Of a DNA stretch of 64,000 nt, positions 3,002 to 25,873 are shown piece after piece. Source of the DNA: Maribellus maritimus (GTDB taxonomy: Bacteria > Bacteroidota > Bacteroidia > Bacteroidales > Prolixibacteraceae); assembly GCF_022267315.1 (NCBI RefSeq), contig NZ_JAIKLE010000023.1, forward strand, positions 1 through 64,000, in the 5' to 3' direction. Below the pieces are notes generated by a model. It saw only the letters and a list, made by a program, of their open reading frames with translations, was not told where the DNA came from and did no database searches. A program made the translations under genes and the position numbers. Positions within the stretch are counted from its first letter, which is position 1. Each line of letters begins with the position of its first letter.

Positions 3002-3066
3002 CAAATGTCATTATTAGCAGTCTAATAAAATTACCAAAATAACGGTTAGAAATACCTCGATTACGG
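3002..3066 (-). promoter_or_regulatory. Regulon site A with -7 element (upstream of CMD operon)
   Basis: Tandem direct repeat TACCAAAATAACGG (3032-3045) and TACCTCGATTACGG (3053-3066), period 21 bp. On the minus strand a GACATTTG element (3002-3009, compare TAnnTTTG) ends exactly 23 bp from the first unit, the same spacing as at sites B, C and D. No TTTG lies at the -33 position. An alternative promoter, with CAAA at 3002 as -33 and 2976-2983 as -7, is also possible. Confidence 0.7.
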
Positions 3067-3254
3067 AATGTTGTATAAAAAACGGGAATTGGGGTATATA
3101 AAATAGAAAACAGCTATAAATTACTGGAATATAGCTTTATATTTTGTGATGGATTGCTTAAAAAGTCTAACTGACAATTTTTCACAGAGTGCGATATTGA
3201 TCTAAACAAAAAGTTTGGGAAATGAACAGAAATGTGCTGATCAATGATGATTAC

Positions 3255-3833
3255 TTATCCTGCAACCGGTGCATGAATTTCGCGTAACTCAACTTTTCTG
3301 CTGGTAGCCAAGTTGACTAAAAGGTTTAGCTTCTCTTTATTGGCGGCTGTAATTTCAGTTGGATTTTTAGCATCAAAAAGCGTACTTCTAACCAATGGAG
3401 CACTAAACGGAACAGGCCAGGCTCTTAATGCTTTTGCAATAGCATCCATCGTATTAATTCCCTGCATGGCCTGAATACCATCTGCCCAGCAAATCATGCC
3501 TATATTTTTGTCGGTGAGATAGGGCTGGGGAGCTTTTGAACTCAACTCAAGCCAGTCTAGACAATTTTTCATTGCCCCGGGAATACTACCGTGATATAAA
3601 GGAGCCAGCCAAAAATGTACATCAGCTTCCAGAAATTGTTGATTCATTAACTCTACCGAAAGTGGAATTTTTGTAACTACTGTATCAAACAAAGGAATTC
3701 CGGCATCAGCTAAATTGAAAATGTTGTTTTCAATCCCTAACTCCTGCAATTTGTTGGATAAATAGGTGGAAAGTAATACAGGTGTTGATTGAGGCTTTCT
3801 TTCCATGGCTCCGTTAAATACTAAGGCTTTCAT
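3255..3833 (-). CDS. NADPH-dependent FMN reductase family protein
   Basis: A 192-residue flavodoxin-fold protein. It begins KALVFNGAMERKPQSTPVLL, the phosphate-binding loop pattern of the NADPH-dependent FMN reductase family, followed by LAPLYHGSIPGAMKNCLDW (about 96-114), which is the substrate/flavin loop (PxYHGSxPGxxKNxLDW). It is expected to bind FMN and reduce quinones, azo compounds or flavin with NAD(P)H in the cytoplasm. It stands alone on the minus strand, downstream of superoxide dismutase and separated from it by a terminator-like hairpin. I see no copy of the 21-bp regulon repeat before it. A redox-stress role is inferred from its neighbours. Confidence 0.85.
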   Translation of the reverse strand: MKALVFNGAMERKPQSTPVLLSTYLSNKLQELGIENNIFNLADAGIPLFDTVVTKIPLSVELMNQQFLEADVHFWLAPLYHGSIPGAMKNCLDWLELSSKAPQPYLTDKNIGMICWADGIQAMQGINTMDAIAKALRAWPVPFSAPLVRSTLFDAKNPTEITAANKEKLNLLVNLATSRKVELREIHAPVAG

Positions 3834-3913
3834 TTTTTCTGATTATGGATTTGGTTAAAGTTTTGCACTGGGCTTGCTGTTGTCGTTTTCTATTTTTCGA
3901 ATTGGAAATCAGG

Positions 3914-3946
3914 GAAAAACAGGCCCTGCGTAATTTTAGCAAGGCC
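3914..3946 (-). terminator. Probable terminator after superoxide dismutase gene
   Basis: Hairpin GGCCcTGC (3922-3929) / GCAaGGCC (3939-3946) with one mismatch in the stem, followed on the minus strand by TG and five T. It lies 61 bp beyond the sod stop codon. Confidence 0.6.
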
Positions 3947-4006
3947 AATTTTTGTACTATTGTAAAGTTGATTTTTCCTTTTAATGTTACCAACAAACCA
4001 GTTTTT

Positions 4007-4630
4007 TCAGATTTTCGACAATGCTTCTTCGTATTTTTTCTCTACTGAAGCCCAGTCAAGAACTGACCAGAATGCATCAAGATAATCTGCTCTTTTGTTT
4101 TGATATTTAAGGTAGTAGGCGTGTTCCCAAACATCAACTCCCAAAATTGGGTAGCCTTTGTCTGTTGACTCAACATCCATTAACGGATTGTCCTGGTTTG
4201 GAGTTGCGGTAACTGCTACAGAACCGTCAGCTTTTACGTAAAGCCATGCCCAACCAGAACCAAACTGTCCTAAACCTGCTTTTTTAATTTCAGCTTTCAG
4301 GTTGTCTACATCGCCAAAAGCTTCACTAATTTGTTCTGCCAGTTTTCCAGCAGGATTTGCCTGAGGAGTTGGTGACAAGATTTCCCAAAAGAGTGAGTGA
4401 TTGTAGTGTCCCCCACCGTTGTTACGAACTGCTTTACTGTATTTACTTACTTCTTTGATTATTTCTTCCAGACTTTTGTTTTCTGCTTCACTTCCTTCAA
4501 CAGCATTGTTCAGGTTATTTACATACGCCTGATGGTGACGTTGATGGTGAATTGTCATTGTTTCATTGTCAAAATGTGGCTCCAAGGCATCTGTTGCATA
4601 CGGAAGAGCCGGTAAATTAAATTTGCTCAT
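4007..4630 (-). CDS. sodA: Superoxide dismutase, Mn-type signature
   Basis: A 207-residue Fe/Mn superoxide dismutase of normal length and without a signal peptide, so cytoplasmic. Metal ligands by family alignment are His28, His78 (in HYNHSLFW), Asp166 and His170 (DVWEHAYY). The residues that separate metal types favour manganese: Gly in the GGGHYNH stretch and Gln146 in NQDNPLM, where iron enzymes usually carry Gln earlier and Ala here. Cambialistic use of either metal cannot be excluded. It is divergent from a cysteine-rich HTH regulator, and closely similar palindromes lie before each gene, suggesting direct control by that regulator. Confidence 0.93.
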   Translation of the reverse strand: MSKFNLPALPYATDALEPHFDNETMTIHHQRHHQAYVNNLNNAVEGSEAENKSLEEIIKEVSKYSKAVRNNGGGHYNHSLFWEILSPTPQANPAGKLAEQISEAFGDVDNLKAEIKKAGLGQFGSGWAWLYVKADGSVAVTATPNQDNPLMDVESTDKGYPILGVDVWEHAYYLKYQNKRADYLDAFWSVLDWASVEKKYEEALSKI

Positions 4631-4681
4631 TATGTATATTTTTTATTGTTATTAACTGGTAGCAAAATTACAAAATGAAAT

Positions 4682-4708
4682 AATAAAACAACCAAAAAGT
4701 TGCTAAAT
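4682..4708. promoter_or_regulatory. Palindromic operator candidate before sod
   Basis: AACAAC (4687-4692) and GTTGCT (4699-4704) form an imperfect palindrome inside AATAAAACAAC...GTTGCTAAAT. The same arrangement occurs at 4804-4830, over the start of the divergent regulator gene. The two copies share about 22 of 27 positions. It lies 52-78 bp upstream of the sod start. Confidence 0.6.
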
Positions 4709-4763
4709 ATTAAATTGATTTTATCTATGATTCATTGACAAACCCCCATACACAACTCTTAAA

Positions 4764-4830
4764 TTGCATTTCAAAACATATTTCACTATCTTTACACCGA
4801 ACCAATAAAACAACTAAATGTTGTTAAATA
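4764..4830 (+). promoter_or_regulatory. Promoter and autoregulatory palindrome of the HTH regulator
   Basis: TTG (4764-4766), then 20 bp, then TATCTTTA (4787-4794), close to the Bacteroidota TTTG-N19-TAnnTTTG promoter. Downstream, a perfect palindrome AACAAC-TAAAT-GTTGTT (4809-4825) overlaps the first possible ATG at 4818. This argues that translation starts at 4833 and that the protein can block its own promoter. Confidence 0.55.
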
Positions 4831-4832
4831 AA

Positions 4833-5468
4833 ATGAAAAAAAATTCGTCAGAACGTATTTTAATGTTACTAAAGATGCGGGGTGAAGCAACAGCGCTTCT
4901 TATTTCGGAAGAACTTGGCGTTACCAAAGAGGGAGCAAGAAAACATTTGCTTAACCTCTCTAATGCAAATCTTGTAAAAGCAACGGAAAAGAGTGAAGGT
5001 GTTGGTCGTCCGTCAACATACTACTCACTTACAGACAAAGGCTTATCCCGATTTCCGGACACGCATGCTGATGTCACGGTTCAATTGTTAAGATCGGTGA
5101 AAAAGCTATTGGGAGATAATGCACTGGATCTACTTATCAGCGATAGAGAAGAAACTGTGTACAACCGCTATGAGAAAGAGATGAAAGGTTCAGAAACGCT
5201 TGAACAAAAGCTGAATATTTTGAGCAAAATGCGCTCAGAGGAAGGTTATATGGCTGAATGGAAAAAGGAAGATAATGCATATTATTTAATTGAGAACCAT
5301 TGTCCCATTTGTGCGGCAGCTACAGAGTGCCAAGGATTCTGTCGCTCGGAGTTACACAACTTTAGAAAATTGGTTGGTTCGGAATACGAAATGGAGAGAG
5401 TTGAGTACATCGTAGAAAATGGAAACCGATGCGTGTATAAAATAAAAAACAGAGCGAATCGAATGTAA
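4833..5468 (+). CDS. Cysteine-rich HTH regulator, SufR-like
   Basis: About 211 residues from ATG 4833 (another ATG at 4818 overlaps an operator palindrome). The N-terminal winged helix reads RILMLLKMRGEATALLISEELGVTKEGARKHL, typical of DeoR/ArsR-like repressors of the SufR type. A GVGRPSTYYSLT wing follows. The C-terminal part has a conserved cysteine cluster C-x2-C-x5-C-x3-C (HCPICAAATECQGFC) and a later Cys (NRCVYKI), as in regulators that hold an Fe-S cluster. It is divergent from superoxide dismutase, with matching palindromes by both genes. I infer a redox or iron-sulfur sensing repressor of sod and of itself. The ligand is not proven by sequence. Confidence 0.8.
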   Translation: MKKNSSERILMLLKMRGEATALLISEELGVTKEGARKHLLNLSNANLVKATEKSEGVGRPSTYYSLTDKGLSRFPDTHADVTVQLLRSVKKLLGDNALDLLISDREETVYNRYEKEMKGSETLEQKLNILSKMRSEEGYMAEWKKEDNAYYLIENHCPICAAATECQGFCRSELHNFRKLVGSEYEMERVEYIVENGNRCVYKIKNRANRM

Positions 5469-7792: not shown

Positions 7793-8659
7793 TTATTTCA
7801 TCTTTCCTCCATACACAGGGAACATGCTTGCCTCACCGTAATCCTCAATTTGTTCCATGTTTAGCAAAACATGCATATCATCATCTGAAATTACAAAATC
7901 CACTTCGGCATTGTTTTTCATATGCGCCGGATTTGCCGTTTTTGGCAAAGGAAGTGTGTTAAGCTGAAGACAATAACGAATACCTAATTGTGGAACAGAA
8001 ACACCGTATTTGTCAGCTATAGTTTTAACTTCCTGATTTTTCATTAATTCTCCGTGTCCGATTGGTGAATATGCTTCAACAAGAATGTCATTATTCTTAC
8101 AGTATTCAATCAGTTCTTTGGGCGTGTTACTAATGTGCGCCAAAATCTGGTTGACCATTGGTTTAACAGTACATGATTCAAGAATGTTATCGATGTCAGC
8201 TTTTTCAAAGTTTGAAACCCCAATGGCGCGAAGTTTCCCGGCTTCATAAGCTTCTTCAAGTGCTCTCCATGTTTCACGGTTTCCCTCAAAATAGGAATCA
8301 TCGCTATGGAATTCCATCCAGGGCTTTGGGCTGTGAATAATCATCAGATCAATGTAGTCCAGGCCCAAAGTTTTAAGCGAACTATCAATGGATGCAACAG
8401 CTTCGTCATACGATTTTACTTCCGCTGCCAATTTTGTAGTTACAAACAATTCTTCTCTTTTAACACCACAGTCTTTGAGTCCTTTTCCAACTCCGTTTTC
8501 ATTCTGGTAAGCCTGGGCTGTATCGATATGGCGGTAGCCAAGATTAACAGCATCTATTACGGCCTGTACGGCATCGTTATCACTAATAAACCAGGTTCCT
8601 AATCCTAATTTTGGGATTTCAACGCCATTTACCAGCGTAAAATTTTCTTTTAAAATCAT
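7793..8659 (-). CDS. Aldo/keto reductase
   Basis: A 288-residue NADPH-dependent aldo/keto reductase of the 2,5-diketo-D-gluconate reductase/AKR5-like group. The catalytic tetrad is visible: Asp46 and Tyr51 in GYRHIDTAQAY, Lys76 in VTTK and His109 in LMIIHSP. The cofactor region LPLPKTANPAHMKNN is typical. It reduces aldehydes or ketones in the cytoplasm. It is the last gene of the leftward operon with a Tat-type ADH, an acetyltransferase, an exported cupin and cyclophilin-like proteins, followed by a 12-bp-stem terminator. Broad carbonyl detoxification is the likely role. Confidence 0.92.
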   Translation of the reverse strand: MILKENFTLVNGVEIPKLGLGTWFISDNDAVQAVIDAVNLGYRHIDTAQAYQNENGVGKGLKDCGVKREELFVTTKLAAEVKSYDEAVASIDSSLKTLGLDYIDLMIIHSPKPWMEFHSDDSYFEGNRETWRALEEAYEAGKLRAIGVSNFEKADIDNILESCTVKPMVNQILAHISNTPKELIEYCKNNDILVEAYSPIGHGELMKNQEVKTIADKYGVSVPQLGIRYCLQLNTLPLPKTANPAHMKNNAEVDFVISDDDMHVLLNMEQIEDYGEASMFPVYGGKMK

Positions 8660-8715
8660 AACTATATCTTTTTGGTCTGTTTAATAAATTTACTTTTTCT
8701 CTAACTATTTCAATA

Positions 8716-9924
8716 TCAAAATGTTGCCGCGTCAATCACATAACGATAACGTGCTTCTTTATTAACAACTTTATCCCATGCTTCGTTTATTTCATCGGCA
8801 GAAATCATCTGAATTTCCGGTTTAATACCATTGTCGGCACAATAATGAACCACTTCCTGTGTTTCCGGCATTCCACCAATCAACGAAGCATTAAAGTTAA
8901 CCCGTGTGGCAGCTAATGTGATGTTGCTGAGGTTGATTTGAAATCCTTCAGGCATTCCTACATACGTAAAGTTGCCGTTTGGTTTTACACACGATACATA
9001 TGGTGCCGCATTAAACTGGTAAGGAATGGTACAAATCATATAATCCAGTTTCTTATTATAAGGTTGCATGTTTTTAGAAGCATTATCTACAACAATAACT
9101 TCTTTTGCACCCCACGATTTGATATCCTCAACTTTATCGGGTGAGGTAGTAAATGCATACACTTCGGCACCTTTTGATACAGCCAGTTTTACTGCCATGT
9201 GCCCCAATCCGCCAATACCGGCAACCCCCACTTTATCTCCAATTTTAAAATCTTCTTTCATCAACGGTGAATAGGTAGTAATTCCGGCACATAAAAGAGG
9301 GGCAGCTTCCTGAAGGCTGATATGATCAGGAATATGAACGGCAAAATGGTCGCGTACAACAATGCTAGTTGAGTAACCACCCTGGGTAATTCCTGTAGGC
9401 GATTTTTTATCAGGGTAACCATAGGTGAAAAGCGTTTGACCATTTTCACAGTAATGCTCTTCGCCATGTGTACAGCTGTCGCATTCCATACAACTGTCGA
9501 CCATACAACCTACACCGGCTCGGTCGCCCACTTTAAATTTGGTTACATTTTTACCAACTGCAGCCACAATTCCAACAATTTCATGCCCCGGAACCTGAGG
9601 GTATTGTTGCGGTCCCCAATGACCTTTCATCTGGTGAATATCCGAATGGCAAATGCTTGCATATTTGGTATCAATTAAAATATCATTATCACCCACAGGT
9701 CGACGTTCGAATTCCCAGGGCTGAAGTTTCCCTGATGTATCGACGGCAGCATATCCTTTTGATTTTATGTTTTGACCGGCACCACCCTCAACAGAGTTGC
9801 TGTTTTGTGCGAAAACATTTATTGGATTATTAAATAAAACACTGGCACCAACACCAGCTATCGCCGATTTTTGAATAAAATCTCTTCTCGACTGTTTTTT
9901 GTTTAATTGTTTTTTGTTCATCAT
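8716..9924 (-). CDS. Zinc-dependent NAD(P) alcohol dehydrogenase with Tat signal
   Basis: A 402-residue medium-chain dehydrogenase of the YahK/cinnamyl-alcohol type. The N-terminus carries a textbook twin-arginine motif SRRDFIQK (12-19), a hydrophobic stretch and a cleavage region near VFAQ (37-40). The catalytic zinc ligands include Cys92 (ASICHSD) and His114 (VPGHE). The structural zinc site is Cys145, Cys148, Cys151 and Cys159. The nucleotide-binding GIGGLGHMAVKLA follows at about 230-245. Most relatives are cytoplasmic and lack a signal. Export of a folded enzyme with bound cofactor is implied. It lies between the acetyltransferase and AKR genes of the same operon. Confidence 0.9.
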   Translation of the reverse strand: MMNKKQLNKKQSRRDFIQKSAIAGVGASVLFNNPINVFAQNSNSVEGGAGQNIKSKGYAAVDTSGKLQPWEFERRPVGDNDILIDTKYASICHSDIHQMKGHWGPQQYPQVPGHEIVGIVAAVGKNVTKFKVGDRAGVGCMVDSCMECDSCTHGEEHYCENGQTLFTYGYPDKKSPTGITQGGYSTSIVVRDHFAVHIPDHISLQEAAPLLCAGITTYSPLMKEDFKIGDKVGVAGIGGLGHMAVKLAVSKGAEVYAFTTSPDKVEDIKSWGAKEVIVVDNASKNMQPYNKKLDYMICTIPYQFNAAPYVSCVKPNGNFTYVGMPEGFQINLSNITLAATRVNFNASLIGGMPETQEVVHYCADNGIKPEIQMISADEINEAWDKVVNKEARYRYVIDAATF

Positions 9925-9953
9925 TTTATTTTTTTCTTATACTCCAAACTTGT

Positions 9954-10520
9954 TTAATGGTTGTCAATATTTTTAATAAACTTTGCCGGAATGCCTCCAA
10001 CAATCGTATTATCCGGTACATTTTTATTAACAACAGCTCCAGCGGCAACTATTGCATTTTCGCCAACGGTAACACCTGGCAAAATTGTAGCTCCGGCACC
10101 TATCCACGCGCCATTTTTTATTATAACCGGCTTAACTATAAGCGCCTGTCGCTCTTTCGGATTTACCGGATGTTCTTCACTTAAGATATTGACTTTGGGG
10201 CCAATCAATACATTATCGCCAATTGTTATGGTTCCCATGTCGAGCATAGAGCACAGATGATTGATGTAAACATTTTTCCCAATTCGGGTAAACTTCCCAA
10301 TATTGATATAAACAGGTACCTGAATCATCGAACTTGAATCAAGCGGAATGCCGGATATTTCGCCCCAAAGCTTACGAACTTTTTTAGTATCGGCAGTTGC
10401 ATTAAGTTCGATCAACAACTTGGTGGTGCACTCAGCAACTTCACTAATTTGAAAATGTTGTGGGTCTGTATACGGCACTGCTTCTCCCGACTGGAGGCGA
10501 TCAAAAATATTCCTGCTCAT
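9954..10520 (-). CDS. Sugar O-acetyltransferase, hexapeptide-repeat (maltose/galactoside acetyltransferase type)
   Basis: A 188-residue left-handed beta-helix acyltransferase. The N-terminal helical part is followed by hexapeptide repeats such as [54 protein letters not shown] and [10 protein letters not shown]. The catalytic His lies in ILSEEHPV (about 116). The family transfers acetyl from acetyl-CoA to sugars or other hydroxyls. The start is 7 bp after the exported cupin gene, so the genes are surely co-transcribed. The role in an otherwise redox operon is unclear. Confidence 0.88.
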
Positions 10521-10527
10521 TTCTGTT

Positions 10528-11007
10528 TTAATTCAGCTTTAAATATTCTTCATCAGTTACTGCATCTTTCCACTCCACAATACCTTTTTCAGTATTTGGC
10601 ACAATATAGATATGACTCATGCTGGCATCTTTTGATGCTCCATGCCAGTGATCTACATCCGGTGGACATTTTACTACATCACCTTTGTGAATAACTTCGA
10701 TGGGTTGTCCTTTAATTTGATGGTAACCAATGCCGGCTGTTACTATTAGAATTTGACCGGCAGGATGCGAGTGCCAGTTACTGCGGGCGCCGGCTTTAAA
10801 AAAAACTTCACCGCCTGCAGTTGTAAATACATCATCGTTCTCTATTAAACCTGTAACATAAACATTACCTGTAAAAAATTTTGATGGTGCCAGTTGGCCT
10901 TTCTCAAAAACATGTTCAACCTTTTGAGCTTTACTTTCATTACTATAACTGTTTAAAAATAAAACAGCCAATATGCCGATAAGGGCTTTAATAGATAAAT
11001 GTTTCAT
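10528..11007 (-). CDS. Exported cupin-domain protein
   Basis: A 159-residue protein with a signal peptide (1-28, ending SKAQ) and one cupin domain. Motif 1 is [13 protein letters not shown] (about 75-88), motif 2 [15 protein letters not shown] (about 118-132). The tail [10 protein letters not shown] matches that of the cytoplasmic cupin at 1675-2073. The histidines should bind a divalent metal. It is expected in the periplasm. The gene is between the cyclophilin-like gene (15 bp away) and the acetyltransferase (7 bp away). The reaction is not known. Confidence 0.85.
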
Positions 11008-11022
11008 AATCCTTATTTTTAT

Positions 11023-11373
11023 TTATTTAACAATTTCGATAGTAGCTTTCAATTCTTCAGAGGTTTTTAGGATGCTTATATCACCTTCTATTTTCCCAAG
11101 TTTTACCAATTCGCTGGCATAACCAAAATCTTTGTAAAAAATGGAGAGGTTTCCCCAGGGAGCAAAGTAGATTATATCTCCTGCTTTTGGATTGAAACCT
11201 GATGGTGATTCACCGGTTTTAAGTGGTTTGTCAAGGTGTTTAATTTTACTTGATTGGCCATAATCATCCAAATTAAGAGTTAATGGAAGAAAAGAGGCAA
11301 AGTCTTTGGCTGCTTCGCTATTGTTAAGCGTAGCCTTGATAACATTTCCATTAGTTGTTATTTTTATTTTCAT
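11023..11373 (-). CDS. Cyclophilin-like fold protein, cytoplasmic
   Basis: A 116-residue protein of the cyclophilin-like (cyclophil_like, PF18050-type) family. The family pattern is visible: ATLNNSEAAKDFASFLPLTLNLDDYGQ, then KAGDIIYFAPWGNLSIFYKDFGYASELVKLGKI and a final strand ATIEIVK. There is no signal peptide. Two relatives follow at 11510-12193 and 12394-12873 with different export signals. These proteins resemble cyclophilins in fold, but the proline-isomerase active-site residues are not evident, so isomerase activity should not be assumed. In other genomes they sit beside flavodoxins, AKRs and cupins. It is separated from the upstream gene by 136 bp. Confidence 0.83.
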   Translation of the reverse strand: MKIKITTNGNVIKATLNNSEAAKDFASFLPLTLNLDDYGQSSKIKHLDKPLKTGESPSGFNPKAGDIIYFAPWGNLSIFYKDFGYASELVKLGKIEGDISILKTSEELKATIEIVK

Positions 11374-11509
11374 TGTTTTTATAGCTTTTTCGCTTTGCTT
11401 TGATTATACTTCTGATAAGCTCTAATTAAGTGACTTATATCCAGAATGTTGTTTAATTATAAAATCATTATATAGCGTAATTTGTTCATTTATAAGGTGC
11501 AATTTCTTG

Positions 11510-12193
11510 TTAGAATGATCGTTTAACAACCTTTCTGATTACTGCTTCCCTATTTCGTGATTCAATCTTTAAAAAATATATTCCTGATGTCAGACTACCT
11601 ATATCAACAACGTTTTCTTGTGTTTTATAAATTGTTTGGCCTTTCATATTCATAAGTGTTATGGTTTCAAAATCGCCTTTCACTTCAAAATAGTCATCAA
11701 CCGGATTTGGATATACCCGGAAATCGTTTTCACCGGTTTTATTCTCCTCTAAACTTGTTACTGTATCGGACAGAGTTAAAGTAACTGTTACATCACCATC
11801 TCCCAATGACGCTTTTAAATCTTCCTGATTAATATTGTCAATTTTTCCAAGTCGTGTAAAATTCCAGGAGTTGGGAGCATAATAAATGACCAATGCATTT
11901 CCCTGATACAATATGATATCTCCGGGTTCGGTTGTAATCTGTTCATCATTTCGTGGTAACGTTGTTCCAATGCTGCCTACTTTTTCCATATTTCCATAGT
12001 CACGCATTTCTATCGTTAATGAATTGTTTTTCAGTAACTCTATTAATGCAGAAGCAGATGAATTTTCCACTAAAGTGGCTGTCAGCTCAGTTGTTCCGTT
12101 AACAGTTAGGGTTATTTTTGTTCCCTGAGCCGAAATATGAATGGCTATCAAACTTATAACGAATATTAATATGTTAATCTTAATGAATCTCAT
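11510..12193 (-). CDS. Cyclophilin-like protein with type IX secretion sorting domain
   Basis: 227 residues: a signal peptide (1-22, ISAQG), a cyclophilin-like domain (about 25-145, with EMRDYGNMEKVGSIG and ITTEPGDIILYQGNALVIYYAPNSWNFTRLGKI), then a C-terminal type A sorting domain (about 158-227) with RVYPNPVDDYFEV, MNMKGQTIY and LTSGIYFLKI. The sorting domain implies passage through the outer membrane by the type IX system and attachment to, or release from, the cell surface. It shares long identical stretches with the lipoprotein at 12394-12873, so the two are recent paralogues. It is first in the operon controlled by site B. Confidence 0.88.
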   Translation of the reverse strand: MRFIKINILIFVISLIAIHISAQGTKITLTVNGTTELTATLVENSSASALIELLKNNSLTIEMRDYGNMEKVGSIGTTLPRNDEQITTEPGDIILYQGNALVIYYAPNSWNFTRLGKIDNINQEDLKASLGDGDVTVTLTLSDTVTSLEENKTGENDFRVYPNPVDDYFEVKGDFETITLMNMKGQTIYKTQENVVDIGSLTSGIYFLKIESRNREAVIRKVVKRSF

Positions 12194-12253: not shown

Positions 12254-12318
12254 CAAATATCGATAGAAGAAGCCAAATAAAATGACCTAAATTACGGAGA
12301 CAGCTACCCATATTACGG
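12254..12318 (-). promoter_or_regulatory. Regulon site B with -7 element (upstream of cyclophilin/cupin/ADH/AKR operon)
   Basis: Direct repeat GACCTAAATTACGG (12284-12297) and TACCCATATTACGG (12305-12318), period 21 bp. On the minus strand GATATTTG (12254-12261, compare TAnnTTTG) ends 23 bp from the first unit. The -33 position has no TTTG. The likely transcript start is about 50 bp before the 12193 start codon. Confidence 0.75.
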
Positions 12319-12393: not shown

Positions 12394-12873
12394 TTATTTG
12401 TCCTCTGATAATGATAATGTGACAGTCACATTGCCGGCACCAAGAACTTTTTTTAGTTCAGATTGAGTTATATTCTCAATCTTTCCAAGTCTTGTGAAAG
12501 ACCACGAATTGGGCGCATAATAAATTACCAAAGCATTTCCCTGGTATAATATAACATCACCGGCTTCAGTGGTTATCGATTCATCGTTTCTGGGAAAACT
12601 TCTGCCCAGAGAACCTACTTTTTCCATATTGCCATAGTCCCGCATTTCCAGTGTTATCGGTGCTTCTGTCAGTGCATTTATAAGCGCTTCTGCAGAAGAA
12701 TTATCGGCAAGTGTTACCTTGAGAATTGTATCTCCAATTTTGATATTCATTGTAGTCGTATTTTGTTCATTATCATTTGTATTATCAAGTAAGCTGTCTA
12801 AGTTTTCTCCGGAACAGGCCATTGTCATTAAAAATATTAGAGCAATAGAGATTAAAATTGAATATTTTTTCAT
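12394..12873 (-). CDS. Cyclophilin-like fold lipoprotein
   Basis: A 159-residue lipoprotein. The signal reads SILISIALIFLMTMACSG with lipid-attachment Cys20, followed by an acidic/Asn-rich linker (21-42). The cyclophilin-like domain spans about 43-157 and contains EMRDYGNMEKVGSLGRSFPRND and GDVILYQGNALVIYYAPNSW, almost the same as the secreted paralogue next to it. It is probably anchored in the outer or inner membrane facing the periplasm. The gene lies 133 bp after the Gfo/Idh gene and may be read with it from site C. The ligand or reaction is unknown. Confidence 0.85.
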   Translation of the reverse strand: MKKYSILISIALIFLMTMACSGENLDSLLDNTNDNEQNTTTMNIKIGDTILKVTLADNSSAEALINALTEAPITLEMRDYGNMEKVGSLGRSFPRNDESITTEAGDVILYQGNALVIYYAPNSWSFTRLGKIENITQSELKKVLGAGNVTVTLSLSEDK

Positions 12874-13006
12874 TTTGAAAATTTTAATTTATAGTGCAAA
12901 TACAAGGCAATTAAATCACTAAATAACAGTTGGTTCTACTAAAATTAAAAAATTTTATTTATTCGAGTAATTCCAATGTTCCGGACAGACTATTATCAAA
13001 AATAAT

Positions 13007-14095
13007 TCAGTTATTATTCCTGGCTGATTTTTCGATGTTATCATACAACTCATGCAATTTTACAGCATTCTGGAAGGTTGGTGCTTTACGAGTATTGCTC
13101 CGAATGTCTTCAGCCAAAAGTTTATAGATCTGAGCTACGTTTCTTACTACGGAATTATCAGGTAATCCTTCATACATCTCAGCCGGAGGTGTCAAAGGCT
13201 GAAGTGATTCGTCCGAACTTTTAGCTCCTTTTATTGAAAGTTGTATCATTTGGCCATGTCCGTTGTCGCCGGTAACCTGGATATCGCCTTCTGTTCCATT
13301 GATTTCCCAAAGTAAATTTATTCCTTTTGAAAGTCCTCCACGATAATGAACAGAGACCGCTGCTCCGTTTTCCAATTGACCGATAACCAAAATCTGGTCT
13401 TCAGCTGTTTTGGGTTTTACTTCACCCGTATCTGCTAGATTTACAGTTGTATAATTGCTGAACATGTTAGCCTTTAGCGATTTAAAATCACCCAAAACAC
13501 TGGTTAATCCAGCCAAAGTATGTCCTAGAGGAATTGTTAACATATTAGCTCCATTGACATTGTCAAACAAATAATAAAGATCTTTTACCGTTTCATTGGC
13601 CCAATTCCAGCCAGAGCCGATTAATGTAGTTGATAATACTTTGCCAACATACCCGTCTTCAATCAGTTTTTTAAGGTATAGAACTTCGGGAGCATTTACC
13701 ATTTGCGTTCCTACAACGGCAACCACACCTTTACTTTCAGCTAACTCTGTGAGCTTTTTCGTTTCTTCCAAACCATTACCCAACGGATGTTCACAGTACA
13801 CATGTTTACCTGCTCCCAAAGCCGCCTTTACCAACTCGAAGTGATAAGGAACTTTCACGGTTACCACTACAAGATCAACTTCAGGAGATTGAATCAATGC
13901 CAATGGATTATCAAAAGCAAACTTAAGATTCAACGCTTTCGCAGTGGCTTGTGCACTTTCAGGTGAACTGTTTGCTACACCAATAACTTCAAACTTGTCA
14001 GACAATAATTTCAATGCTGGAATATGAGCGGTTGCTGCCCAGTGGCTATCAGGATTTAATCCAATAAATCCTACTCGTATTTTGTTGTTTTCCAT
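13007..14095 (-). CDS. Gfo/Idh/MocA family oxidoreductase
   Basis: About 362 residues from ATG 14095. The frame extends to a GTG at 14119, but that would leave almost no leader after the predicted promoter at 14136-14143. The N-terminal Rossmann fold has RVGFIGLNPDSHWAATAHIPAL and later VDLVVVTVKVPYHFELVKAALGAGKHVYCEHPLG, with the usual EHP in place of EKP. A C-terminal alpha/beta domain follows. The family oxidises or reduces sugars and related molecules with NAD(P). No signal peptide. It is preceded by regulon site C. The substrate is unknown. Confidence 0.88.
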   Translation of the reverse strand: MENNKIRVGFIGLNPDSHWAATAHIPALKLLSDKFEVIGVANSSPESAQATAKALNLKFAFDNPLALIQSPEVDLVVVTVKVPYHFELVKAALGAGKHVYCEHPLGNGLEETKKLTELAESKGVVAVVGTQMVNAPEVLYLKKLIEDGYVGKVLSTTLIGSGWNWANETVKDLYYLFDNVNGANMLTIPLGHTLAGLTSVLGDFKSLKANMFSNYTTVNLADTGEVKPKTAEDQILVIGQLENGAAVSVHYRGGLSKGINLLWEINGTEGDIQVTGDNGHGQMIQLSIKGAKSSDESLQPLTPPAEMYEGLPDNSVVRNVAQIYKLLAEDIRSNTRKAPTFQNAVKLHELYDNIEKSARNNN

Positions 14096-14135
14096 GTGCT
14101 TTATATTGTTCGTTTTCACTTTTTTATGGTTGCTA

Positions 14136-14200
14136 CAAATTTAAATAGAATACTATAAAGTATTTTACCATTATCACTGATTCGGTTACCCGTATTACGG
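14136..14200 (-). promoter_or_regulatory. Regulon site C with -7 element (upstream of Gfo/Idh gene)
   Basis: Direct repeat TACCATTATCACTG (14166-14179) and TACCCGTATTACGG (14187-14200), period 21 bp. On the minus strand TAAATTTG (14136-14143) is a perfect -7 element and ends 23 bp from the first unit. No TTTG is at -33, which fits dependence on an activator. Confidence 0.75.
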
Positions 14201-14247: not shown

Positions 14248-15660
14248 TTATAATGATTTGTTCAGCCATTTCCCTTTAAATAACCTGAACAGGAAGATTG
14301 CACCGCGGAAACACAATTCAATACACATCGCTATCCATACTCCTTTTAGTCCCAATACCGGAGCCAGTAGGGCAGCTAAAGTAAGACGGATGGCCCACAT
14401 GCTCGAGAAATTCATAATGCTCGGAATAAACGTGTCTCCGGCACCAACAAAAACACCATAGGCCACAATTGACGCTGCAAACATGGGTTCTGCAAAAGCT
14501 TCAATTTGTAAGGCCATTACTCCCAACGATACAACCTCTGGGACGGATGTCATAAAGCCCATTATCAAAGGAGCGGCAAAATACATTATAGCTCCCATAA
14601 CAGTCATCACTGCCATTCCCATAAAAACCGTGATGTGCGCAAAACGTTTGGTTAGTTCTTTCCTTCCTGCTCCAATACTTTGGCCGACCAATGTTGTGGC
14701 TGCTTCAGCAATCCCATAGCCGGGCATGTAACACAGTCCTTCGGCTGTAATCGCAAACGAGTTGGCGGCAATAGCAGCAATACCTAACGGAGCAACAATA
14801 ACCGTTGACATGATTTGCGCTCCCATTATAACTATGTGCTCCATCGTCATAGGTAAACTAATCTTGAGCGCTTTTTTTAGTACTGCTTTTTTGGGTACAA
14901 AGCTCCCATTTTCTTGGGTGAGGCGTAAATTTTTATCTTTCGTAATCAGGTACAACAACAATAAAATAGCCGTAACAAAATATGAGATGGCCGTTCCCAG
15001 GGCAGCGCCAACAACTCCTAGTCCGGCTCCCGAAACAAAAATATCTGCTCCTAACAGGTGGATTTCTCTTGAAGGAAATATCAGGAAAAAATTAAAAATT
15101 ACATCGAGTACAGTCATAATCACATTTAGAATACTCGGAATATGCATATTGCCGCTGCTACGCAGCATGCCGCTTGCCAGGAAATTCAACTGCAGTGCCG
15201 GTAATGATAATATGAAAATGAGAAAGTATTTCGAGGCGTCTTCTGCAATGGATGCATCTGCGCCCAGCCAGTAAGGTAACTTCTGGCTAACCAAGGCTCC
15301 TATTACTACCAAAACAAAACTAAACAACAGGGTAGACACAATGGCCTGTCTTAATACCGTTCGTGCTCCTATCCGGTCTTTTGCCCCGATAAGATGGGCA
15401 ACATGCACCGAAAAACCTGCTGCGACGGTAGTACATATTCCCCAAAACAACCAGGTTGATGAGACAACAAGACCAATTGACGCTGAGGCATTTGCGCCTA
15501 AACTTCCAACCATCGACGCATCGATGTATTGCATGATGATGGATGAAAATTGTGCAATAATGGCCGGGACACTCAACAGTACCGCCAAATGCAACTGCTG
15601 CATAAATGTCATTGTCTGCCCGTTTTGAATGAGCGACAACAGGTAAGTACTTCTTTTCAA
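14248..15660 (-). CDS. MATE family efflux transporter
   Basis: A 470-residue multidrug and toxic compound extrusion protein with twelve predicted membrane helices in two halves. Typical stretches are VLLSVPAIIAQFSSIIMQYIDASMVGSLG (about 28-56), MLRSSGNMHIPSILNVIMTVLDVIFNFFLIF (about 165-195) and the second-half ISLPMTMEHIVIMGAQIMSTVIV. It exports cationic or amphipathic compounds with sodium or protons. The frame starts with TTG at 15660 (KRSTYLLSL), and an ATG at 15612 is an alternative start. It is the last gene of the DUF3737-MalY-MATE operon downstream of site D. A weak AT-rich hairpin lies beyond its stop. Confidence 0.9.
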   Translation of the reverse strand: MKRSTYLLSLIQNGQTMTFMQQLHLAVLLSVPAIIAQFSSIIMQYIDASMVGSLGANASASIGLVVSSTWLFWGICTTVAAGFSVHVAHLIGAKDRIGARTVLRQAIVSTLLFSFVLVVIGALVSQKLPYWLGADASIAEDASKYFLIFILSLPALQLNFLASGMLRSSGNMHIPSILNVIMTVLDVIFNFFLIFPSREIHLLGADIFVSGAGLGVVGAALGTAISYFVTAILLLLYLITKDKNLRLTQENGSFVPKKAVLKKALKISLPMTMEHIVIMGAQIMSTVIVAPLGIAAIAANSFAITAEGLCYMPGYGIAEAATTLVGQSIGAGRKELTKRFAHITVFMGMAVMTVMGAIMYFAAPLIMGFMTSVPEVVSLGVMALQIEAFAEPMFAASIVAYGVFVGAGDTFIPSIMNFSSMWAIRLTLAALLAPVLGLKGVWIAMCIELCFRGAIFLFRLFKGKWLNKSL

Positions 15661-15709
15661 TTGAAAATTTTATTCAAATGTTTGAAGAAAAACCGCACAA
15701 CAATCAAAA

Positions 15710-16891
15710 TTAATTCTGTGCGATGACTTTATCAAAAGCCTTTTTAATTCTATTCAATCCCTCATGCAAAACGTCTCTCGGACATGCTATATTCATGCGC
15801 ATAAAACCTTCACCTGCATCGCCGTATACTGTTCCTTCGTTCAGCCAAACCTTTCCGTTTTCTATCAGAAGTTCGGTAAGCTTCTCCGATTTAATGTCTA
15901 AAACAGAGGTGTCGATCCATACCAAATAAGTGGCTTCCAGTGGTAAAATCGGGAATTGAGGAAAGTTTTCGGTAAAGAAATCTTTTACCAAAAGGTAGTT
16001 GTCCCGCAAGTAAGCTCTTAAATCATCCAGCCATTTCTCTGAGTCTTCGTGCGTGTAAGCTGCAATCAATCCTTCAACGGCAAACGGACTGATATCGCAT
16101 ACTTCGTTAATATTGATCGCCTTATCCACTTTTTTTCGAATTTCGGGGTCGTATGCAAAAATATTGGCCACCTGCAAGCCGGCTAAGTTGAATGTTTTAC
16201 TGGGGGCGGTGCAGGTTACCGAGTTTTCCAAAAATTGTTGGCCTAACGACGCAAATGGAATGTGAGTATATCCCGGGTGAACCAGATCGCAGTGAATCTC
16301 ATCCGCTACCACAATTACATTATTTCGGAGGCAAATTTCACCTACTTGCTCCAATTCTTCTTTTGTCCAAACACGGCCTGCCGGGTTATGCGGATTGCAT
16401 AAAAGTATCAACTTCGCTTTTGGATCGGACGCTTTTTGTTCCAGATCTTCAAAATCGATGGTATATTTTCCATCTTTACAGATCAGGTCGTTGGAAAAAC
16501 TCTCGCACTTATTATTCCGAATCGACGAGAAAAAACAGTTGTATACCGGCTCCTGCACTATTACTTTATCTCCCGGTTCTGTCAGTGCTAAAATGGTTGC
16601 AGAAATGGCCGGAACTACACCAATTGTATAAATCATCCACTCTTTTTCAACCTTAAAGTTATGTCTGCGTTCAAACCAACGGATTACTGCATTGTAATAA
16701 TCATCTGGCACTTTAGCATAACCAAACACTCCGTGATGGACTCTTTCTGCAAGCGCATCAATTATCGGTTGAGCCGTTTTAAAATCCATGTCAGCCACCC
16801 ACATCGGTAGTACATCACCCTTTTTGTCTGAATCCCATTTGTAAGAGTTGCTTCCTCTGCGTTTTATCTTTTTATCAAAATTGTTTTGCAT
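15710..16891 (-). CDS. MalY/PatB family PLP-dependent C-S beta-lyase/aminotransferase
   Basis: About 393 residues, fold-type I PLP enzyme. Visible landmarks are LPMWVADMDF near the N-terminus, NPHNPAGRVW (about 168-177), the PLP-contact ADEIHCDL (about 199-205) and the Schiff-base lysine in APSKTFNLAGLQ (about 234 counted from the upstream GTG). The family cleaves cystathionine or other C-S bonds, releasing pyruvate, ammonia and a thiol. Some members act as regulators. ATG at 16891 is preferred over GTG at 16897, which overlaps the DUF3737 stop. The pairing with DUF3737 and a MATE pump recurs in other bacteria (from memory). Confidence 0.9.
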   Translation of the reverse strand: MQNNFDKKIKRRGSNSYKWDSDKKGDVLPMWVADMDFKTAQPIIDALAERVHHGVFGYAKVPDDYYNAVIRWFERRHNFKVEKEWMIYTIGVVPAISATILALTEPGDKVIVQEPVYNCFFSSIRNNKCESFSNDLICKDGKYTIDFEDLEQKASDPKAKLILLCNPHNPAGRVWTKEELEQVGEICLRNNVIVVADEIHCDLVHPGYTHIPFASLGQQFLENSVTCTAPSKTFNLAGLQVANIFAYDPEIRKKVDKAININEVCDISPFAVEGLIAAYTHEDSEKWLDDLRAYLRDNYLLVKDFFTENFPQFPILPLEATYLVWIDTSVLDIKSEKLTELLIENGKVWLNEGTVYGDAGEGFMRMNIACPRDVLHEGLNRIKKAFDKVIAQN

Positions 16892-16896
16892 AATCA

Positions 16897-17754
16897 CTAA
16901 ACATTAACTGCTGTTTCAACTATAATTTTGCAGCCACCCGGATTTTTACAGTTTTCATCAAAAATAACCTCACCTATACTTTGTGCTAAAATTTCACCTT
17001 CTGTCGGATTTTTCACACTTGTAATCGGGCTATTTATTTCAGCTTTTAAAGTACTATATTCAAATGCCAAATCAGCATTCTCTTTCATTTCACAGTTCTC
17101 CATAATTAGGTTCTGAGCGTAACACAAAGGTTGTGTTCCACCAATAATAGAATTTACCAGGCGCAGGTTTTTCGAGTGCCATCCCAAATATTCGCCTTCT
17201 ATAACCGAATTGTAAACCGTTACATTCTCGGTATTCCAAAATGCGTCTTTTGAATGAATATGAGAATTGTGAATTTCAACATTTTTGGCATACTGAAAGC
17301 CATAGTTTCCCTGAAGCTCCAGTTCGTTTATATTAATGTTTTTGCTATCCTTAAAGATGTAATCGCCATTTTTCACTTTTACATTTTTAAACCGGATGTT
17401 TTTACACCACCATGTACATTCCTGTGCATCAGTGAGCTCAACGTTTTCAAGGTATAATCCATCAATCTCGCGAAACATTTTAGGGGCTTCTACCCGGGTA
17501 TTCACCATACGAAGGTCTTTGCAATACCAAATGGCAGCACGTCCGCCAGGTGTAAATAATGAATCCTCAATAATGCTGTTTGTATTGTGCCAGAATGGGT
17601 ATTTCCCTCCAAATTTACATGCGGTAGCTTTTATGTTGCTTGCTTCTTTTAGTGCTGATTCTCCAACTCCAATTTCTACCTTTACCAGGTGTAAATCTTT
17701 CTTTGCAAACAGTGGCCGCTCCCCTTCATAAAATTTGTTTTCTATTGTTTCCAT
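16897..17754 (-). CDS. DUF3737 family protein (parallel beta-helix)
   Basis: A 285-residue protein with short repeating units (for example NIRFKNVKVKNGDYIFKDSKN, NVEIHNSHIHSKDAFWNTENV and NLRLVNSIIGGTQPLCYAQNL) that build a right-handed beta-helix. It matches the DUF3737 pattern, including the N-terminal ENKFYEGERPLFAKKDLHL. No signal peptide, so cytoplasmic. It has no established function. It is the first gene of the three-gene leftward operon with MalY/PatB and MATE, and regulon site D lies 66-100 bp before its start. Confidence 0.88.
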   Translation of the reverse strand: METIENKFYEGERPLFAKKDLHLVKVEIGVGESALKEASNIKATACKFGGKYPFWHNTNSIIEDSLFTPGGRAAIWYCKDLRMVNTRVEAPKMFREIDGLYLENVELTDAQECTWWCKNIRFKNVKVKNGDYIFKDSKNININELELQGNYGFQYAKNVEIHNSHIHSKDAFWNTENVTVYNSVIEGEYLGWHSKNLRLVNSIIGGTQPLCYAQNLIMENCEMKENADLAFEYSTLKAEINSPITSVKNPTEGEILAQSIGEVIFDENCKNPGGCKIIVETAVNV

Positions 17755-17789: not shown

Positions 17790-17854
17790 CAAAAATCGGG
17801 GTTACAATTTTAATAGGATGACCACTATTCCGGTATTAGCTACCAATATTACGG
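17790..17854 (-). promoter_or_regulatory. Regulon site D with -7 element (upstream of DUF3737/MalY/MATE operon)
   Basis: Direct repeat GACCACTATTCCGG (17820-17833) and TACCAATATTACGG (17841-17854), period 21 bp. On the minus strand GATTTTTG (17790-17797) is a near-match to TAnnTTTG and ends 23 bp from the first unit. No -33 TTTG is present. Confidence 0.75.
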
Positions 17855-24200: not shown

Positions 24201-24353
24201 ATCGGAACAGGAGCAGTTGGTGGTATGCTTATCGGTACGTTGATTGGAATTTTGGTTATTCCTGCCATGTTTGTAGTTTTCCAGATTCTGGAAGAGAAAG
24301 TGAGAAAACCAAAGGAGATTGAAGATATATCAGAAATGAACAGTTTGGGTTAA
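21201..24353 (+). CDS. RND multidrug efflux permease (AcrB/HAE1 family)
   Basis: A full-length 1050-residue inner-membrane RND transporter. It opens MFRRFIERPVLSTVISIILV, with twelve membrane helices in two halves and two large periplasmic loops. The proton-relay acidic pair is Asp405-Asp406 in GIVVDDAIVVVEA, and the second-half relay Lys lies in LIGLLAKNAILIVEFA. It exports hydrophobic and amphipathic compounds with proton influx as a trimer. The genes order as marR-adaptor-permease-outer membrane factor, a complete tripartite system. Typical substrates include detergents, bile salts, dyes and antibiotics, but specificity cannot be read here. Confidence 0.97.
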   Translation: MFRRFIERPVLSTVISIILVILGILGITTLPIEQYPDIAPPTIRVSANYTGADAQTVLNSVVIPLEEQINGVEDMIYMSSTASNNGSATIQVYFKQGTDPDMAAVNVQNRVARANALLPAEVTRAGVLTAKRQNNMLMVFSLYSKDGRYDETFLQNYSKINLLPQVQRINGVGEAMVFGRKDYSMRIWLKPDIMSNYNLIPADVIAALNTQNLEAAPGRFGSENNQSFEYVIRYRGKLTQPEEFENIVIKSDEDGNILRLGDIARVELGSLDNTAITETQGQPGISMAIFQSAGSNAREVILEVENTLEEASKSFPPGVDYLELMNTNEFLDASIEKVLHTLLEAFILVFIVVFVFLQNFRATLIPAIAVPVSIIGTFFFLNLFGFTINLLTLFAMVLAIGIVVDDAIVVVEAVHAKLDSGAKNAKSAAISAMNEISSAIVSITLVMAAVFIPVTFITGTTGVFYKQFGITLTVAIVLSAVNALTLSPALCAIFLKPHNEEVKSQKGIMKRFYTAFNTAFETMTGKYKKITHFFISKRLLAGTMIIIFVALLAYLMKTTSTGFVPSEDTGRMFVDIAMPPASSAERTAEVTQQVDAILATVPEINARTAITGFSFMGGQGSPYAMVIAGLKPFDERKKEGQDLNSIVQKLYMLTSQIKGARIIIFSPPMVPGFSVTGGFELQLEDKTGGNVQDFEKVANNFLGALNQRPEIQYARTAFNTGFPQYRIDVDAARCMRSGLEVSTVLSVMQGYIGGYYASDFNRFGKQYRVMVQSEAQYRGNPEDLNNIKVRTSNGEMAPISEFITLTRVYGPETINRFNMYTAITVNGNPNPGFSSGDAIDAVREVATELLPTGYAYEFSGLTREEINSGNQTMIIFILSLIFVYFLLAAQYESYILPLSILISLPIGIAGSFIFARILGVDNNIYLQISLVMLIGLLAKNAILIVEFARQRRESGMSIIEAAVEGATARLRPILMTSFAFIVGLIPLVIGTGVGANGNRSIGTGAVGGMLIGTLIGILVIPAMFVVFQILEEKVRKPKEIEDISEMNSLG

Positions 24354-24372
24354 GTCCTTAAAAAAAGAAAAG

Positions 24373-25761
24373 ATGAAAACGAATTCAATAAAAAATATAC
24401 TAGTCATTACTGGAATGACAGTATTACTTTGGTCGTGTGCCAGCACAAATCAATACCAGCGAAGTCCTGAGTTTACAGAAGGATTGTATGGCACCGCACA
24501 AACCGACAAAAAAAATCTATCAAACGAACATTGGCAGGATCTGTTCAACGATTCTATACTAGACAGCTTAATTTCAGAAGGATTAAAAAACAATCTTGAT
24601 CTTCAAGCAGCTGTTCAACGGATAATTGCTGCCGAATCTAATTTTTATCAAAGCAAGGCAGCACTTGCCCCTTCATTGTCTGCACAAGCCGGGCACACAT
24701 ATGTTCACAACTCTGAATCGACTAGTCCGAACGGTCCCAGCCACTATAATGCTTCGCAAGCAGCTATACAAAGTAGCTGGGAAATTGATTTCTGGGGAAA
24801 ATTAAGTAACGCAAAAAAAGCGGCTTATGCCAGTTATCTCGCAACCGATGCTGCGCACAAAGCAGTGAAGACCAGACTAATTGCTAACATTGCCTCTGTT
24901 TATTATAACTTGCTTGCGCTCGACGCCAGTTTAGATATCACAAAGGCGACGGTAAAAAACAGTGCCGAGGTAGTTGAAACCATGAAAGCTTTAAAAGAAA
25001 GTGGAGACGTAACGGGGGCAGCAGTCGTTCAAAGTGAAGCATCCCGTTATGCAGCCGAAGTAACCATTCCCGACATCGAACAGCAAATAAAGGAAAATGA
25101 AAATACGCTATGCCTGCTTTTAGGAAGAACTCCGGGAAATGTAGAACGTGGGAAACTAAAAACTCAAAAAGCGCATGAGTTGCTGGCAATTGGAGTTCCC
25201 GCTGACCTGCTGGAGAATCGCCCTGATGTTATGCAGGCTGAATACAACGTAATTAATGCCTACCACATAACCAACAGAGCAAAGGCCTATTTTTACCCGT
25301 CGGTAACACTTACTGCCAGCGCCGGTTTAGAATCGTTAAAACTGGGAGACTTACTCAATCCATCATCGTTTGCAGCTAACATTGTTGGAGGATTGGTTCA
25401 ACCAATATTTAGTCAACGTGCCAACAAAACACGTTTGGAAGTTGCCAAAGCTCAGCAGCAAGAAACACTGTTAAATTTTCAAAGCACCCTACTGAATGCC
25501 GGTGCAGAAGTAACCGACGCTCTTAGTATGTACGATGCGTCGTTACAAAAAATTGAACTCCGTAAAAAACAATTAGATGCACTGAAAAAATCGGTTGAAT
25601 ACACTAAAAATTTGTTGGTTTATGGCTCAGCAACCTACACTGAAGTTTTAAATGCACAACAAAGTTTGTTAAATGCACAGCTGAATAATGTTAACGATCA
25701 TATTCAACAACTGAACTCGATAGTTATGCTATATCGCGCATTGGGAGGTGGGTGGCAATAG
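24373..25761 (+). CDS. Efflux outer-membrane factor lipoprotein (OprM/TolC type)
   Basis: A 462-residue outer-membrane factor with a lipoprotein signal (VLLWSCAST, Cys22). Two OEP domains cover about 60-235 and 260-455. Long helical stretches give the trimeric periplasmic tunnel, and recognisable segments are SSWEIDFWGKLSNAKKAAYA (about 135-155) and IGVPADLLENRPDVMQAEYNV (about 275-295), both hallmarks of the NodT/OprM family. It completes the tripartite pump 19 bp after the permease. The last gene of the operon, it is followed by site E and the araC gene. Confidence 0.95.
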   Translation: MKTNSIKNILVITGMTVLLWSCASTNQYQRSPEFTEGLYGTAQTDKKNLSNEHWQDLFNDSILDSLISEGLKNNLDLQAAVQRIIAAESNFYQSKAALAPSLSAQAGHTYVHNSESTSPNGPSHYNASQAAIQSSWEIDFWGKLSNAKKAAYASYLATDAAHKAVKTRLIANIASVYYNLLALDASLDITKATVKNSAEVVETMKALKESGDVTGAAVVQSEASRYAAEVTIPDIEQQIKENENTLCLLLGRTPGNVERGKLKTQKAHELLAIGVPADLLENRPDVMQAEYNVINAYHITNRAKAYFYPSVTLTASAGLESLKLGDLLNPSSFAANIVGGLVQPIFSQRANKTRLEVAKAQQQETLLNFQSTLLNAGAEVTDALSMYDASLQKIELRKKQLDALKKSVEYTKNLLVYGSATYTEVLNAQQSLLNAQLNNVNDHIQQLNSIVMLYRALGGGWQ

Positions 25762-25790
25762 AATTTGATATTTATTGCAAAGGGGTTTAT

Positions 25791-25873
25791 TACCCAAATC
25801 ATCGAATTACTTACCCAAATTACGGAATATGAATACTGAGGGTAATATCCTAAAAAATAGTTATTTAAATTTG
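25791..25873 (+). promoter_or_regulatory. Regulon site E and promoter upstream of araC
   Basis: Direct repeat TACCCAAATCATCG (25791-25804) and TACCCAAATTACGG (25812-25825), period 21 bp. Further downstream, TAAATTTG (25866-25873) is a perfect -7 element for the plus-strand araC gene, 40 bp from the repeat. Relative to the gene, this site is in the opposite orientation from sites A-D. It suggests autoregulation, perhaps with a different effect. Confidence 0.65.

Follow-up and report, generated by a model that had tools for sequence, protein, structure and literature searches.

Whether five repeated sites in one stretch of the Maribellus maritimus genome form a regulon, and which protein reads them, is the question that this locus raises (assembly GCF_022267315.1, contig NZ_JAIKLE010000023.1, positions 1 to 64,000 of the forward strand; this whole stretch of 64,000 nt is called the window below). 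A first-pass annotation had described the unit (T/G)ACC-N3-ATTACGG, occurring as a tandem pair ahead of four gene sets and ahead of an araC gene, and had proposed the product of this araC as the probable reader. Our analysis points to the same protein as the regulator of all five sites, most likely as a class II activator of the targets, with a probability of about 0.88. An AraC-family protein would very probably switch on four neighboring detoxification-like gene sets and its own gene, and comparison between genomes gives good support to the view that this is the regulon of an uncharacterized AraC subfamily widespread in Bacteroidota.

The paired search pattern, KACCNNNATNACGG-N7-KACCNNNATTACGG, found tandem pairs at all five positions named by the annotation (3032, 12284, 14166, 17820 and 25791), and in 5/5 of them the unit starts are exactly 21 bp apart, as had been claimed. 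The pattern had no match in 100 shuffles of the window, and the single unit with at most one mismatch was found 10 times in the window against 1.16 expected. When up to three mismatches were allowed, five matches were found in the whole genome (7,334,083 bp in 201 contigs), all of them in the window and on the same strand, while the same pattern read backwards had none in the whole genome; the chance of five uniform matches falling within 22.8 kb is approximately 5e-10. Scatter over the genome or a position within coding regions, which the annotation had named as grounds against a regulon, is not what was seen: in this genome the motif is confined to the five sites, each intergenic and directly upstream of a gene. 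Four of them lie 46-90 bp ahead of the first gene of operons on the minus strand, and the fifth (25791) lies 75 bp ahead of araC on the plus strand. The second unit had been called the better match in every pair. It matches 11/11 fixed positions in all five pairs, the first unit 10, 11, 9, 10 and 8 of 11 in order of position, so the statement holds for 4/5 pairs while the pair at 12284 is a tie.

The distance between the units was examined in 133 loci (2.47 Mb) with a relaxed unit, a threshold of at least 20 of 22 and lags of 15-32. There were 156 pairs at a lag of 21, compared with 0-5 at each of the 17 other lags. Since 14 of the scanned loci (L069, L070, L171-L182) were fetched for motif matches or as extensions, cleaner evidence comes from the loci picked by AraC peptides and from the phylum sample, both described below. 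Because it scores 19, the araC site of the window falls outside the 156; with it added and two duplicates removed, 155 distinct sites were available for analyses of sequence and promoter spacing. Away from the nearest relatives, the usual form is TATAC-N2-ATTAC[GT]G for the first unit and TACC-N3-[AT]TTAC[GT]G for the second, and over 14 positions of the 155 sites the second unit carries 19.6 bits compared to 16.9 bits in the first. A weaker A[TA]T follows each unit (1.2, 1.0 and 0.7 bits at positions 36-38; 0.3, 0.65 and 0.6 bits at positions 15-17), so that the real length of the unit is probably near 17 bp, a little more than in the first description. A chance origin of the pairs was rejected by the whole-genome and shuffle counts and by the spacing scan, and weaker evidence of the same kind comes from backwards controls: 27 matches against 74 in the genus, where a looser pattern was used, and 4 against 24 for the broad pattern in the phylum sample. 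In loci of Rikenella and its relatives (L125, L136, L143) two complete operators stand in tandem, 98-99 bp apart, upstream of araC.

The motif tracks the AraC protein. Loci were collected as neighborhoods of AraC homologues from relatives, together with 80 loci from a species-genome collection that were picked by AraC peptides alone and that include Mangrovibacterium, Bacteroides, Parabacteroides, Alistipes, Mucilaginibacter, Pedobacter, Chitinophaga, Dyadobacter and Flavobacterium; the tandem motif was scored out of 22 positions in the 250 bp before araC. The combined set holds 122 full-length homologues, 104 at no less than 53% identity (103 scorable) and 18 at less than 50%. All 103 scored members of the first group carry the tandem motif upstream, 102 of them at 21 bp with scores of 19-22, and the lowest, from Bacteroidetes bacterium SZAS-49 (L162), scores 17 with units which by eye are 20 bp apart. 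Among the more distant homologues 16/18 score 13-16, which equals background. Within the peptide-picked loci the motif precedes 80/80 scored homologues of at least 53% identity, at a distance from the araC start of 57-76 bp in 79 cases and of 166 bp in the remaining one. In an even draw of 247 genomes of the phylum, with best-match loci taken from 29 genomes other than the window's, the motif is present in 15/16 loci with at least 439 bits and in 0/13 with 410 bits or less. Conservation beside araC orthologues, which the annotation had expected, is thus seen in both collections, and its proposal that AraC reads the sites is supported by comparison, because the motif follows the subfamily, being present above approximately 51-53% identity and mostly absent in more distant homologues. 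The sites could also be read by another nearby regulator, such as the MarR protein encoded at 19530 or the winged-helix-like one at 4818, both of which are close by, or the repeat could have no regulatory role; we consider this extremely improbable in view of the motif's constant company with araC, even in loci picked by AraC alone, and of its fixed distance to promoter boxes reported below.

The subfamily is patchy, with at least 434 bits in 17/247 sampled genomes. In the search for relatives 7,998/8,000 scored candidates at E 1e-60 resemble the araC protein. A tight pattern searched phylum-wide with 2 mismatches matched in 13/395 genomes, some of the matches looking by eye like TAC-rich coding repeats. 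Matches are few because the first unit is TATAC and not TACC outside the nearest relatives, so the broader pattern was then used; its 24 matches come from 14/247 genomes, 19 of them within 25 kb of an AraC match when compared by hand. On a tree made by a quick method from 77 rows (the window protein, 60 random motif-bearing homologues and 16 without the motif) the motif label needs 3 changes, compared to 14.7 in shuffles. Starred branches force at least two motif changes, so a single origin is not shown, and several motif-free rows are very long branches. The type of the first unit (TACC in 12, TATA in 45, other in 4) needs 4 changes on the same tree.

The operator is directional, with targets on one side and araC on the other, each at a fixed distance from a promoter box. 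Seventy-eight of the 156 sites lie between araC, which runs in the same direction as the motif, and a divergent target, 50 adjoin a target only, 24 araC only and 4 neither; the motif itself is non-palindromic. Called open reading frames (ORFs) enclose 17 of the sites, and as all 17 also adjoin an araC or target start, these ORF calls look over-long or spurious. Promoters of Bacteroidota are described with a -7 box TAnnTTTG, and in B. fragilis with TTTG near -33 (PMC7366714). At the 53 sites without araC, TTTG is found 25-27 bp away on the target side in 50 and 42-45 bp away on the araC side in 5, while at the 102 sites with araC it is found at these distances in 80 and 82, respectively; a 3-bp window placed at any other offset contains TTTG in approximately 2% on average and 11% at most. 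In the window itself [TG]AnnTTTG lies exactly 22 bp from the operator edge at all four target operators, whereas at araC the box is 40 bp away. Base counts over the 155 sites revealed no -33 element standing out between operator and box in either direction.

A class II activator would have this geometry at the targets, and at araC the operator stands upstream, in a class I-like position. Two AraC protomers would sit on the head-to-tail units of each operator, and since the 21 bp between unit starts are two turns of the helix, both would face the same side of the DNA. In the direction of the target operon the unit reads CCGTAAT-N3-GGTA; the operator, ending about 22 bp ahead of the -7 box, would replace or touch the -33 region, so AraC is most likely a class II activator of target promoters that have no -33 element. 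On the araC side about 40 bp separate the box from the operator, which thus lies upstream of the promoter, a position that fits activation of AraC's own gene better than its repression. Alternatively, AraC could bind and repress the targets, araC or both, with release by the inducer, as an operator ending about 22 bp before the target -7 box could block the -33 region. We regard repression as improbable, because the lack of a -33 consensus on either side suggests promoters in need of an activator, although another member of the phylum, Flavobacterium johnsoniae, is also described as having -33 elements that are difficult to recognize (PMC7366714), and because a position about 40 bp upstream of the araC box is a poor place for blocking.

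As judged from domain matches and a predicted structure, the araC protein has the AraC/XylS-family domain plan, that is, a C-terminal double helix-turn-helix (HTH) and an N-terminal cupin-like effector or dimerization domain. The HTH exceeds the curated cut-offs of PF12833 (E 1.4e-21) and PF00165 (E 7.1e-16), and the N-terminal domain has no Pfam match at E 0.001. In the predicted structure (mean pLDDT 84, pTM 0.68) the N-terminal domain resembles the regulatory domain of RhaR, with TM (by target) 0.70-0.72, and that of AraC with TM 0.56-0.63; full-length ToxT/Rns are matched as well, and the best fold matches overall are AraC-family structures. Over the full length TM falls to about 0.4, a low value that probably reflects a different placement of the domains. 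No named AraC-family model of NCBIfam reached its curated cut-off: 24 gave matches at E 0.001, and the best of them, HpaA, scored 58.2 where 274.65 is required. The cysteines of the araC protein are Cys56, Cys141 and Cys218; the model places Cys56 between two strands, where its confidence is lower (pLDDT 61-69, residues 51-70). A cysteine is present at positions 53-57 in all 104 homologues of at least 53% identity (at 56 in 101), which would allow a thiol switch at Cys56. The idea is a lead only, as a cysteine in this stretch is likewise found in 11/18 of the homologues at greater distance (at 56 in 2), most of which have no motif. The window's genome encodes a second AraC of the subfamily with 57% identity and part of a third, which contains an in-frame TAG (G000:C123:8000-27999, locus L081); each keeps a TATAC-type operator, ahead of a set led by a 376-aa family and of an AKR/SDR set.

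Several observations weigh against AraC as the activating reader of these sites. Two homologues below 50% identity (L070, L083) carry the motif too, and the one motif-free locus in the upper group of the phylum sample (L192, G238:C10) encodes a protein of 55% identity; it lacks the motif in the scored orientation and has a match with 2 mismatches on the opposite strand of its upstream stretch. Five of the 24 broad-pattern matches in the phylum sample are not near an AraC match, and 24 of the 74 looser matches in the genus lie more than 25 kb from any AraC homologue. Nine of these last regions were examined: six (L171-L174, L179, L181) hold a site scoring at least 20 ahead of a gene in target orientation, and in L178, L180 and L182 the score does not reach 20. 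Furthermore, activation and positive self-control, although probable, are deduced from position alone, and the gene set does not single out one inducer.

Consecutive ORFs on one strand were taken as a target operon, which may therefore include genes that are not controlled, and an operon preceded by two sites is counted twice; target families are single-linkage BLAST clusters named from one Pfam-scanned member or from window genes. An operon lies within 400 bp at 137/156 sites. The families, by number of sites, are aldo-keto reductase (AKR) 60, cupin 42, CMD 36, DUF4440/SnoaL-like 26, hydrolase 26, a 376-aa family without Pfam match 24, acetyltransferase 19, carboxylesterase 15, cyclophilin-like 14, flavodoxin 14, zinc alcohol dehydrogenase (ADH) 13, DUF3737 12 and iron ADH 9. 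Families found downstream in the window recur in other genomes, and the sets vary around the reductases. The 376-aa family (representative L167:8713-9843; L065, L072, L167 and others) is the first gene at 14 sites and by eye resembles a secreted alpha/beta hydrolase. A distant site lies ahead of a second CMD-cupin-cyclophilin operon common to three relatives (L171, L172, L173) and another ahead of an MFS transporter in L174, L175 and L179, which indicates that the regulons can reach beyond the cluster.

The frequency of reductases (AKR, zinc and iron ADH), together with flavodoxin, exporters and accessory detoxification-like families, suggests protection from reactive carbonyls or electrophiles, as with YqhC. 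Reactive aldehydes, alpha-dicarbonyls or other electrophiles are accordingly our first guess for the inducer, at slightly worse than even odds. The inducer could also be a small molecule of a catabolic pathway, aromatic, phenolic or an uncommon sugar, with the operons forming a degradation pathway, as is the case for XylS and benzoates. CMD, hydrolase, tautomerase, SnoaL-like, ABM and Gfo/Idh families also occur in catabolic pathways, and the effector domains of RhaR, AraC and ToxT are similar to the N-terminal domain as predicted here. Among 120 listed relatives the names are generic where given, except in two (P0092, P0097) called "transcriptional activator of pobA", pobA being a gene of 4-hydroxybenzoate use. 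This name looks automatic, no ring-cleavage enzyme or pobA was found among the classified window proteins, which are a part of the window's ORFs, and the target sets, which vary between genomes around reductases and include MATE and MFS exporters, also speak against this reading; we consider the catabolic inducer somewhat less likely than an electrophile. The electrophile reading in its full form, a widespread Bacteroidota sensor of electrophiles or reactive carbonyls with a switch at the near-invariant Cys56 in a cupin-domain loop and one directional operator that would drive two promoters, class II at detoxification operons and class I at its own gene, is a doubtful proposition. Among the window enzymes, the ADH has E. 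coli YahK as nearest PDB structure, and the AKR, nearest to a prostaglandin F synthase and YvgN, scores against the DkgA/DkgB models below their cut-offs. YahK is described as reducing many aldehydes with a preference for NADPH (PMC3684718).

Direct repeats of this period have been described before, with an average of 21 bp for AraC-type regulators of Bacteroides hybrid two-component systems (PMC3878776) and with 21 bp for Bacteroides RhaR (PMC3870299), so the regulon is new while its kind is known. Common to them and to the present case are the AraC-type DNA-binding domain, repeats ahead of local target operons and regulons inferred comparatively. Their described targets are in polysaccharide or rhamnose use and the hybrids are large sensor-kinase fusions, while here a one-component protein of 298 aa goes with reductases, cupins, CMD and exporters. 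A hybrid system was rejected, as only HTH domains were matched in Pfam and there is no fusion to a sensor, histidine kinase or receiver. XylS at the Pm promoter of Pseudomonas putida is described with two 15-bp direct repeats, each with a GGTA box at the 3' end, and with the activator beside the -35 region; it fills the proximal site first (PMC5481539), whereas here the unit farther from the target promoter is the better conserved one. The unit here, read towards the targets, also ends in GGTA; its counterpart of box A is GTAAT, in XylS TGCA. The XylS repeats also have a 21-bp period. A Bacteroidota -7 box and an operator common to the targets and the regulator's own gene set the present system apart from XylS. 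E. coli YqhC is an AraC-type activator of yqhD and dkgA which responds to aldehydes and for which expression data suggest self-regulation (PMC6115493, PMC8262776). An AraC-type activator would here too control a possible aldehyde reductase with an adjoining AKR, the AKR scoring against the DkgA/DkgB models below their cut-offs and the ADH being nearest to YahK. More operons are involved here, and the protein has no match to AraC_N (PF06719) in Pfam at E 0.001; membership in the YqhC group is not claimed. RclR of E. coli is described as a reactive-chlorine sensor activated by oxidation of Cys21 and Cys89 that controls rclABC (PMC7464077). RclR is an AraC-family stress sensor using cysteines, and in the present protein one cysteine is almost invariant among close homologues. 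The window protein has none at 21 or 89, positions being compared without alignment so that equivalents are possible, and membership in the RclR group is not claimed either.

Among the matches listed from open-access titles and abstract beginnings, in which subscription journals are mostly missing, no description of the motif, regulon, operator, two-promoter rule or inducer was found. Resembling proteins number in the thousands, and an operator of fixed spacing turns an orphan regulator into a predictable regulon. The regulon groups reductase, cupin, CMD, flavodoxin and SnoaL-like genes, and its operator is a ready reporter for finding the inducer; should this prove to be of the aldehyde or electrophile kind, Bacteroidota would have in this system their counterpart of YqhC or RclR.

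Table 1. Operators, predicted promoter boxes and genes of the putative AraC regulon in the window.
Feature	Position	Strand	Basis
Operator of CMD-cupin-hydrolase operon (genes on -)	3032..3066	+	0 mismatches
Predicted -7 box GACATTTG of CMD operon, 22 bp from operator	3002..3009	-	sequence and spacing rule
Operon: CMD 2189-2950, cupin 1675-2073, S15/DLH-like hydrolase 566-1624	566..2950	-	ORFs and Pfam
Operator of cyclophilin-like/cupin/acetyltransferase/ADH/AKR operon	12284..12318	+	0 mismatches
Predicted -7 box GATATTTG, 22 bp from 12284 operator	12254..12261	-	sequence and spacing rule
Six-gene operon, first part: cyclophilin-like with type IX secretion (T9SS) tail 11510-12193, cyclophilin-like 11023-11373, mandelonitrile-lyase-type cupin 10528-11007	7793..12193	-	
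Six-gene operon, second part: hexapeptide acetyltransferase 9954-10520, Zn-ADH 8716-9924, AKR 7793-8659	7793..12193	-	
Operator of Gfo/Idh gene	14166..14200	+	1 mismatch
Predicted -7 box TAAATTTG, 22 bp from 14166 operator	14136..14143	-	sequence and spacing rule
Gfo/Idh oxidoreductase 13007-14119 and cyclophilin-like gene 12394-12873	12394..14119	-	ORFs and Pfam
Operator of DUF3737-MalY-MATE operon	17820..17854	+	1 mismatch
Predicted -7 box GATTTTTG, 22 bp from 17820 operator	17790..17797	-	sequence and spacing rule
Operon: DUF3737 16897-17754, PatB/MalY C-S lyase 15710-16897, MATE transporter 14248-15660	14248..17754	-	
Operator of araC, units 25791-25804 and 25812-25825	25791..25825	+	2 mismatches; conserved ahead of araC in homologues
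Predicted -7 box TAAATTTG of araC, 40 bp from operator	25866..25873	+	sequence; 39-40 bp usual at araC sites
araC, 298 aa	25901..26797	+	ORF, Pfam, predicted structure, fold search

The operons listed by the first-pass annotation are right, with the addition that the cyclophilin-like gene which follows Gfo/Idh has to be counted too. Because the first cyclophilin-like protein of the six-gene operon is fused to a C-terminal tail of type IX secretion, one product of the regulon is probably exported, and the ADH of the same operon starts, by eye, with a Tat-like signal (RRDF...). Between two regulon operons, at 3255-5995, there are FMN reductase, Fe/Mn superoxide dismutase, winged-helix-like and pyridoxamine-oxidase-like genes without an operator. 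Directly ahead of araC, at 19530-25761, the MarR regulator is followed by genes which by eye seem to encode an RND adaptor, pump and outer-membrane factor, a group that has no site of its own.

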